Assembly: GCA_025935415.1 (NCBI GenBank)
Contig: JAICVI010000003.1
Coordinates: 1-44,783, forward strand
DNA from: Chloroflexota bacterium
Lineage (GTDB): Bacteria; Chloroflexota; Limnocylindria; Limnocylindrales; CSP1-4
DNA length: 44,783 nt
Direction: 5' to 3'
Shown: one piece after another, positions 29,414-30,949 of the stretch
Layout: each line of letters opens with the position of its first letter
Position numbering within the stretch: position 1 is the first letter of the stretch
Position numbers and translations under genes: made by a program
The notes under the pieces: generated by a model
Databases searched by the model: none
What the model was told of the DNA's origin: nothing
Seen by the model: only the letters and a program-made list of their open reading frames with translations

Positions 29414-30049
29414 CTAGTTCGGGCGCGGGTGCTTCGCCTCGTGCTCCTCGGCTTCCTTGAGGCGGGCGCGGTAGCGCGCCGCCTTCGCCTGGTTGCCGCA
29501 GGAGCGCATGTCGCACCAGCGGCGCCGGCCGGTCGGCGAGGAGTCGAAGAACGCCCACCGGCAACGGTCGTTCGCGCAGACGCGGAGGCGCTCGGGACGC
29601 CCGGTGGCCAGCTCTTCGATGATCGCCTCGGCGATCAGGGCGAGCGCGTCGTCGACGGGCGTCTCGGCGTGGCGGTGGCCGATGCGGAGGGCGGTGCCGT
29701 CGAGCTCGATGCGCGTCGGGCGGCGCTGCTCGAGGACGGCGTTCACGAGGTGGACCGCGTCGGCGTCCGGTGGCCGGCCTTCGACGACCGAGTCGACGAT
29801 CTCGCGCAGCGCGCTGCGGACACGCCGGATCCGCGCGAGGTCAGTGTCGAGGAGCGCGATCCCGGCGTCGGGATGCACGAGCTCGTGCTCGAGGAACCAC
29901 ATCGCGGCGTCCGCTGGACTCTCGAGGTGCTCGTCGCGCAGGTGCTGCTCGTCCGTTCGGCCGTGGCCGGGGTGGAGCGTGTTGAGGAAGTCGAGGGCCG
30001 ACTCCAGATCGATGCCGTGCGAGTGCTCGGCGGGGGAGATGTTGCCCAT
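29414..30049 (-). CDS. CGNR zinc-finger (ABATE-type) putative transcriptional regulator
   Basis: C-terminal CANDRCRWAFFDSSPTGRRRWCDMRSCGNQAKAARYRAR. Confidence 0.85.
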   Translation of the reverse strand: MGNISPAEHSHGIDLESALDFLNTLHPGHGRTDEQHLRDEHLESPADAAMWFLEHELVHPDAGIALLDTDLARIRRVRSALREIVDSVVEGRPPDADAVHLVNAVLEQRRPTRIELDGTALRIGHRHAETPVDDALALIAEAIIEELATGRPERLRVCANDRCRWAFFDSSPTGRRRWCDMRSCGNQAKAARYRARLKEAEEHEAKHPRPN

Positions 30050-30073
30050 GTGGTTAGCGTCCCGTTTCCATGT

Positions 30074-30160
30074 CGATAACCACTCTACAGCGGTTGACAG
30101 GTTACGCGCAAGAGGGTAATGTACACACCGTAACCAATGAAGCCATAGAAACGGGTTACG
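30074..30160. promoter_or_regulatory. Divergent promoter/operator region: TTGACA-17-TAATGT (+) with repeated GGTTACG/CGTAACC sites
   Basis: -35 TTGACA 30094-30099, -10 TAATGT 30117-30122; GGTTACG 30100-30106, CGTAACC 30129-30135, GGTTACG 30154-30160, CGATAACC 30074-30081. Confidence 0.75.
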
Positions 30161-30181
30161 GACCAGGGAAGGAGGCCACCG

Positions 30182-30298
30182 ATGGCGCTCTTGATCGAAA
30201 TCGCTCTGCCGCTTGCGCTGTTCGCGATCCTCGCGATCGCCGCCATGTCGTGGGGCGCCGATTCCCGTCCGAGCCTGGGCGACGACCACGCCCGGTAG
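30182..30298 (+). CDS. 38-aa membrane peptide
   Basis: MALLIEIALPLALFAILAIAAMSWGADSRPSLGDDHAR; SD aaggagg upstream; downstream of the TTGACA promoter. Confidence 0.7.
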   Translation: MALLIEIALPLALFAILAIAAMSWGADSRPSLGDDHAR

Positions 30299-30311
30299 GA
30301 GACCCGACCAC

Positions 30312-30563
30312 ATGCAGCACCAGAACACGGAGTTTCTTCCCATGCACGCATTCGCGCCGTACCTTCTCGCAATCCATCAGCGAGACCTGCTCCAGGAGGC
30401 CGAGAGCACGCGGCGAGCGCGCCTCGCGGCGGCCGCCCAGCGCGGCGTCCCGGCTTGGCGCCGGGGCCTCGGCGGATTCCTCGCCCTTGCCGCCCGATCA
30501 GTCGATCCGACCATCGGCGAGCGCCAGGGGAAGGGCCGCGGCGCACGAGCCATGGCTGCCTAG
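30312..30563 (+). CDS. Small basic protein of unknown function
   Basis: MQHQNTEFLPMHAFAPYLLAIHQRDLLQEAESTRRARLAAAAQRG...; SD taggag overlaps the preceding stop. Confidence 0.6.
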   Translation: MQHQNTEFLPMHAFAPYLLAIHQRDLLQEAESTRRARLAAAAQRGVPAWRRGLGGFLALAARSVDPTIGERQGKGRGARAMAA

Positions 30564-30949
30564 CCTCCCGGCATGACAACCGAACACGAGGGCTCACCCG
30601 CTCCTCCAGGCGGGCGCGATGCCGCCGCCTGAGGCCCCGATCACTCGACACCGTCGATGACGATCGGGGCTTCTCGATTCCCCTTCTGGTGCGTTCCCGC
30701 CGGTCAGATAAGCCGCAGATAAGCGGGCGCCGGTAGGTTTCGCATCGACGCCTCGACCGACGAAGTGCCCCGACGGCCGAGGCGTTCACTTTCCGGCCCG
30801 CCGAGTCGCCCGCCGCCACCCCGTCGAGCAGCTGGACGAGCCGCCCGCCGAACCATCCCGCTGTACCTCGTGAGCCCCCGCCCGCCGGCAACGAACCGAG
30901 CCCGCAGCAGTCGCCGGATCCCGCCCGTAGCCGCCGGATCGAGGCAGCC

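Follow-up and report, generated by a model that had tools for sequence, protein, structure and literature searches.

A predicted operator of ABATE/CGNR regulators, and a small membrane peptide as its putative output in Chloroflexota

Introduction

Proteins with ABATE and CGNR zinc-finger domains have been called "putative stress-induced regulators" on the basis of one structure, and the family is little studied. Divergent, self-regulated one-component repressors of the TetR or MarR type are a known arrangement. Bacteria also have small single-helix membrane proteins with regulatory roles, such as AcrZ, MgtS, and KdpF. The CGNR protein Jann_2411 (PDB:3h0n) is reported to be a likely dimer whose zinc finger is predicted to bind DNA (PMC2954205). 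The B. pertussis CGNR gene bp3097 is listed as up, along with mod genes, in a phase of suspected cysteine starvation (PMC9976334); we do not count this as evidence.

Here we examine a CGNR gene from an assembly of Chloroflexota (Limnocylindrales; GCA_025935415.1, contig JAICVI010000003.1, positions 1 to 44,783; "the window" is this whole stretch of 44,783 nucleotides). A preliminary description of the window had noticed a CGNR gene divergent from two small ORFs, with copies of GGTTACG in between, and had proposed that the CGNR protein binds these copies in a compact self-regulated module. Comparisons of sequences support this reading. A broader and more novel reading, to which we give a probability of about 65%, is that ABATE/CGNR regulators from at least four phyla share an operator code and that a membrane peptide with a GxDSR tail is a new output in Chloroflexota, placed under CGNR, GntR, MocR-type, or LysR regulators.

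A CGNR gene next to two small genes

The genes and nearby features are as follows.

29414..30049, minus strand: gene of a candidate repressor, 211 aa, from the ABATE/CGNR zinc-finger regulators (Pfam, phmmer, AlphaFold model)
30170..30175, plus strand: Shine-Dalgarno sequence AGGAGG of ORF A (sequence)
30182..30298, plus strand: ORF A, a 38-aa single-helix membrane peptide with the tail WGADSRPSLGDDHAR (homologues by profile)
30342..30563, plus strand: ORF B, a small basic helical protein of 73 aa; the longest frame starts at 30312 and has 83 aa (relatives; model)
30631..30673, plus strand: stable hairpin 3' of ORF B, a possible transcript end (MFE -28.4 kcal/mol, z -4.3)

The identity of the regulator was upheld by Pfam, with matches well above the curated cut-offs to ABATE (3.5e-20, 73.4 bits; cut-off 24.4) and, at the C-terminus, to zf-CGNR (1.6e-18, 66.6 bits; cut-off 24). 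The protein is also similar in sequence to 3h0n (phmmer 1.8e-7), which is the only significant fold match in the PDB to its AlphaFold model (E 4.6e-8, TM 0.58/0.65). The zinc-binding cysteines (C158, C163, C179, and C184), along with G185 and N186, are invariant in our alignment (A2). The CGNR-type helix motif reads CGNQ in the window.

In the window's subfamily, HxH precedes the LDFLNT motif of ABATE (30017-30025, minus strand, in the window), and a GHRH motif lies further along. As a speculation, these motifs hint at a site for a metal or a similar ligand. We did not adopt heme sensing because the similarity to AppA/SCHIC is weak (Pfam E 0.017, PDB E 0.14) and the AlphaFold model has no fold match to AppA/SCHIC.

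Both small genes are present as well. ORF A was found as described, with a good Shine-Dalgarno sequence. Its family has one membrane helix followed by GxDSR, in which G and R are invariant and D and S nearly so. Position 2 is often acidic and an arginine often follows the helix, which suggests an N-out/C-in topology. By profile, 92 of 177 genomes from the class and 76 of 301 from the phylum have homologues; tblastn gave no match to the peptide on plasmids. ORF B had been described as a basic protein of 84 aa. The small basic ORF is there, but we read its length as 83 aa, and the product probably has 73 aa and starts at 30342, because the alignment of its relatives begins at Met11, which is nearly invariant. 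The predicted model of ORF B has two helices, and most close pairs of ORF B genes have an excess of third-position changes. Neither ORF has a credible match in Pfam or NCBIfam. The hairpin beyond ORF B was missed by the intrinsic-terminator scan because it has no T-run.

Two inverted repeats around the promoters

GGTTACG occurs five times in the window, as compared to 0.96 expected, and none of 100 shuffles reached five. The copies at 30100 (plus), 30129-30135 (minus), and 30154 (plus) and the related CGATAACC at 30074 are where the preliminary description had placed them. What it had overlooked is that they resolve into two inverted repeats with the same spacer, TAACC-N18-GGTTA: CGATAACC supplies the partner half-site for the copy at 30100, and the copies at 30129 (inverted) and 30154 make up the other repeat.

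30077..30104, unstranded: predicted operator A, a TAACC-N18-GGTTA inverted repeat that spans the divergent promoter region (sequence)
30131..30158, unstranded: predicted operator B, again an inverted repeat TAACC-N18-GGTTA, at the expected start and leader of the small-gene transcript (sequence)
30094..30122, plus strand: small-gene promoter, TTGACA at 30094-30099, 17 bp, TAATGT at 30117-30122 (sequence)
30082..30111, minus strand: probable overlapping CGNR promoter, TTGCGC at about 30111-30106 and TGTAGA/TAGAGT at about 30089-30082 (from conserved blocks)

The right half-site of operator A is immediately 3' of the -35 box, inside the 17-bp spacer. The preliminary description had called this promoter strong. 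TTGACA-17-TAATGT, with GGTTACG directly after a perfect -35, is indeed present, but the strength is not established, as TAATGT shares just 3 of 6 bases with TATAAT and no promoter was called by the sigma-70 scan. The leftward promoter is probable, given blocks (GCGCAAG and TCTAtA) that are conserved in the family; the f4 loci, which are more distant, do not share these blocks.

Two other features of this region were seen. An inverted repeat of 8 bp, distinct from those above, flanks the promoter region with CCGTTTCC/CCCGTTTC and GAAACGGG (about 30062-30069 and 30148-30155). Also, the CGNR leader in the window (30047-30072) contains an additional segment, in which an ATG...TAA frame of 5 codons directly precedes the start. 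Close relatives lack this segment, and their ATG nearly adjoins the -10.

Conservation in the window's genus and family

The preliminary description had made its reading depend on conservation of the motif and of the small ORFs beside CGNR homologues. Both are conserved in the window's family, where the peptide recurs with a CGNR gene divergent from it and a small basic ORF 3' of it. A search for the promoter-operator core in some 85,000 species genomes gave 29 loci, of which 27 are from Chloroflexota (Limnocylindrales) and 2 are labelled as Gammaproteobacteria.

Among 30 promoter-aligned loci from Chloroflexota, a set that was partly selected with a pattern containing one half-site of operator A, 27 have operator A at a constant position with respect to the -35. 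(That pattern contained neither the remaining three half-sites nor the spacings.) Operator B is present in 25 of the 30, at 31-37 bp from the start of the -35, and in these 25 it ends 12-26 bp before the start codon of the peptide. The relatives keep TTGACA at the -35 and the TA of the -10.

In the window's genus, TAACC-N18-GGTTA is present twice in exact form at the CGNR locus of all 10 genomes with a match to ABATE and is missing from the 5 genomes without one, with the caveat that metagenome-assembled genomes (MAGs) are incomplete. A reversed control pattern is nearly absent from the genus. Across the family, 11 of the 13 extra operator matches that we inspected fall within long open frames. 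We therefore take the regulon to be probably local and rejected a broad CGNR regulon.

Sites beside CGNR genes in other groups

ABATE/CGNR proteins are widespread, with occurrences in 76 of 251 sampled genomes of Chloroflexota and in 202 plasmid records. The preliminary description had suggested a comparative search for motif pairs upstream of CGNR homologues, and such pairs do lie beside CGNR genes across the phylum, and in other phyla with different targets. In Chloroflexota outside the window's class, the site is present at 34 of 56 CGNR genes (shuffles: mean 0.07, maximum 2), and at 29 of these 34 it occurs at least twice. The spacing between half-sites peaks sharply at 17-18 bp. The divergent genes at these loci include EamA-like transporters, hydrolases, and small basic ORFs.

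On plasmids of Pantoea and Duffyella, the N18/N19 pair lies beside a CGNR gene with a divergent alpha/beta hydrolase. A plasmid record from Alicyclobacillus has the N19 form twice, with a divergent NTF2-like gene. TAACG-N18-CGTTA is found beside CGNR genes on three rhizobial plasmids (the target is EamA) and in a plasmid record from Mycolicibacterium (the target is a carboxymuconolactone decarboxylase). At CGNR genes from Streptomyces, Rhodococcus, and Sphingomonas, repeats of TCACC/GAACC/AAACC/TAACC with N9 take the place of N18.

The operator code that forms part of the broader reading would thus comprise inverted repeats whose half-sites have a core like ACC/GGT. The TAACC-N17-19-GGTTA form is often present twice, the rhizobia and Mycolicibacterium have TAACG-N18-CGTTA, and Streptomyces, Rhodococcus, and Sphingomonas have the N9 form. 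The strict site is missing at about 40% of the CGNR genes in the phylum, and with the N9 relatives elsewhere, this indicates that the rule is not universal.

Two side observations concern these sites. N9-spaced ACC/GGT inverted repeats lie near the starts of actinobacterial and Sphingomonas CGNR genes (loci L259, L260, L262, L263, L268, and L271), and these may be a second spacing class. Two MAG contigs labelled as Gammaproteobacteria (L054 and L077) have N19 operators between CGNR and hydrolase- or dehalogenase-like genes.

Does the site go with the regulator or with the peptide?

The peptide is not always next to a CGNR gene. In the sampled peptide loci, the divergent regulator is CGNR at 47 distinct loci, a GntR protein of about 335 aa at 28, a MocR-type GntR-aminotransferase at 6, and LysR at 3, with 6 rows unassigned. 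(These classes were set by sequence motif, and the GntR, MocR, and LysR types were confirmed with Pfam on six representatives.) TAAC[CT]-N17-19-[AG]GTTA is upstream at 43 of the 47 CGNR loci versus none of the 37 GntR, MocR, or LysR loci (Fisher P = 1e-19, which is inflated because related loci are not independent samples). This implies that the operator follows the regulator rather than the peptide. The GntR, MocR, and LysR loci have conserved motifs of their own. ORF B is likewise restricted: it is present in 32 of 48 CGNR-linked peptide rows versus 0 of 37 with the other regulators. Together with the sites in other groups, the comparisons show the predicted operator tracking the CGNR gene across differing targets and phyla.

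Other peptide loci have features of their own. A hairpin of 32-33 bp, GTCAGCCCGCGGCCTGCGCGCCACGGGCTGAC, is nearly identical 3' of GntR-linked peptide genes in many species (loci L015, L017, L022, L025, L027, L029, L030, L130, L133, L134, L142, L144, and L147); its conservation is unusually high for a terminator. At one locus outside the class (L301), a relative of the peptide is divergent from a magnesium-chelatase-like ATPase gene and has no regulator there.

Proposed mechanism and alternatives

From the genes, the repeats, and the conservation of the repeats, all of which can be read in the sequence, we infer binding and repression by CGNR. The locus is most likely a locally acting, self-repressing switch, as far as regulator, operators, and repression are concerned. 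The CGNR protein, probably as a dimer, would bind both repeats between its own gene and the small-gene operon and would contact half-sites that are about two helical turns apart. Operator A would overlap the probable leftward promoter as well as the spacer between the rightward -35 and -10, while operator B would cover the rightward transcript start and leader. Since the operators lie over the promoters, bound CGNR should block both, giving repression of itself and of its target. A signal sensed by the ABATE domain may then release CGNR, and the output would be the GxDSR membrane peptide and the small basic helical protein.

At the same sites, CGNR could instead activate or have a dual role, and two operators between divergent genes would also fit a dual regulator. 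But a half-site within the 17-bp spacer and an operator over the start and leader normally block the polymerase, and the perfect -35 suggests that an activator is unnecessary, so we consider this unlikely. (With its ordinary length of 17 bp, the spacer led us to reject MerR-like activation.) The link between the array and CGNR is a comparative one, which leaves room for another widely conserved factor as the binder, with CGNR as a mere neighbour. This is very unlikely, as the site stays with CGNR genes in different phyla and beside different targets, and none of the 37 peptide loci with another regulator has it.

Other alternatives to the self-repressing switch concern its output. A small hydrophobic peptide with a small basic partner under apparently tight control might be a toxin-antitoxin-like or self-toxic unit that CGNR silences; this would change the output and not the regulation. 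However, a toxin is paired with its antitoxin, and ORF B is missing at every one of the 37 peptide loci with other regulators. Also, the peptide retains its specific GxDSR tail. We find this quite unlikely. As the frames are very short and belong to no Pfam family, it might be the transcript itself that matters. The conservation of amino acids across more than 90 genomes, the Shine-Dalgarno sites, and the third-position changes in ORF B make this very improbable. As for what the peptide and ORF B do, our weak and rather doubtful guess is that under stress they serve at the membrane as a small subunit with an accessory or regulatory role.

Comparison with known systems

The regulator family and the divergent autorepressor layout are already known. 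In contrast, we found no description of the CGNR operator or of the GxDSR peptide family in the open-access literature, and TAACC-N18-GGTTA seems to be the first DNA-binding site to be predicted for the ABATE/CGNR family. A predicted operator with a defined half-site, spacing, and position enables the prediction of targets and direct binding tests in culturable genera, for instance Pantoea, Rhizobium, and Alicyclobacillus.

The window's protein shares both domains (PF07336 and PF11706), the zinc-finger cysteines, a CGNR-type motif, and the fold with Jann_2411 and its family. Its subfamily differs in the His-rich N-terminus (HxH before LExALDFLNT) and the GHRH motif. As in TetR- and MarR-type one-component repressors, the regulator is divergent from its target over a shared promoter region, conserved inverted repeats overlap the promoters, and the regulon is probably local. 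Unlike those repressors, the window's CGNR protein has a treble-clef zinc finger instead of a helix-turn-helix, and its half-sites have a long N18 spacer and form two tandem operators.

ORF A resembles AcrZ, MgtS, and KdpF in its size (about 30-50 aa), its single membrane helix, and its conditional expression, which for ORF A is a prediction. It differs from them in having no detectable sequence family, a conserved GxDSR tail, and paralogues beside four unrelated types of regulator. One peptide family under four such regulators points to a recurrent and probably conditionally expressed output.
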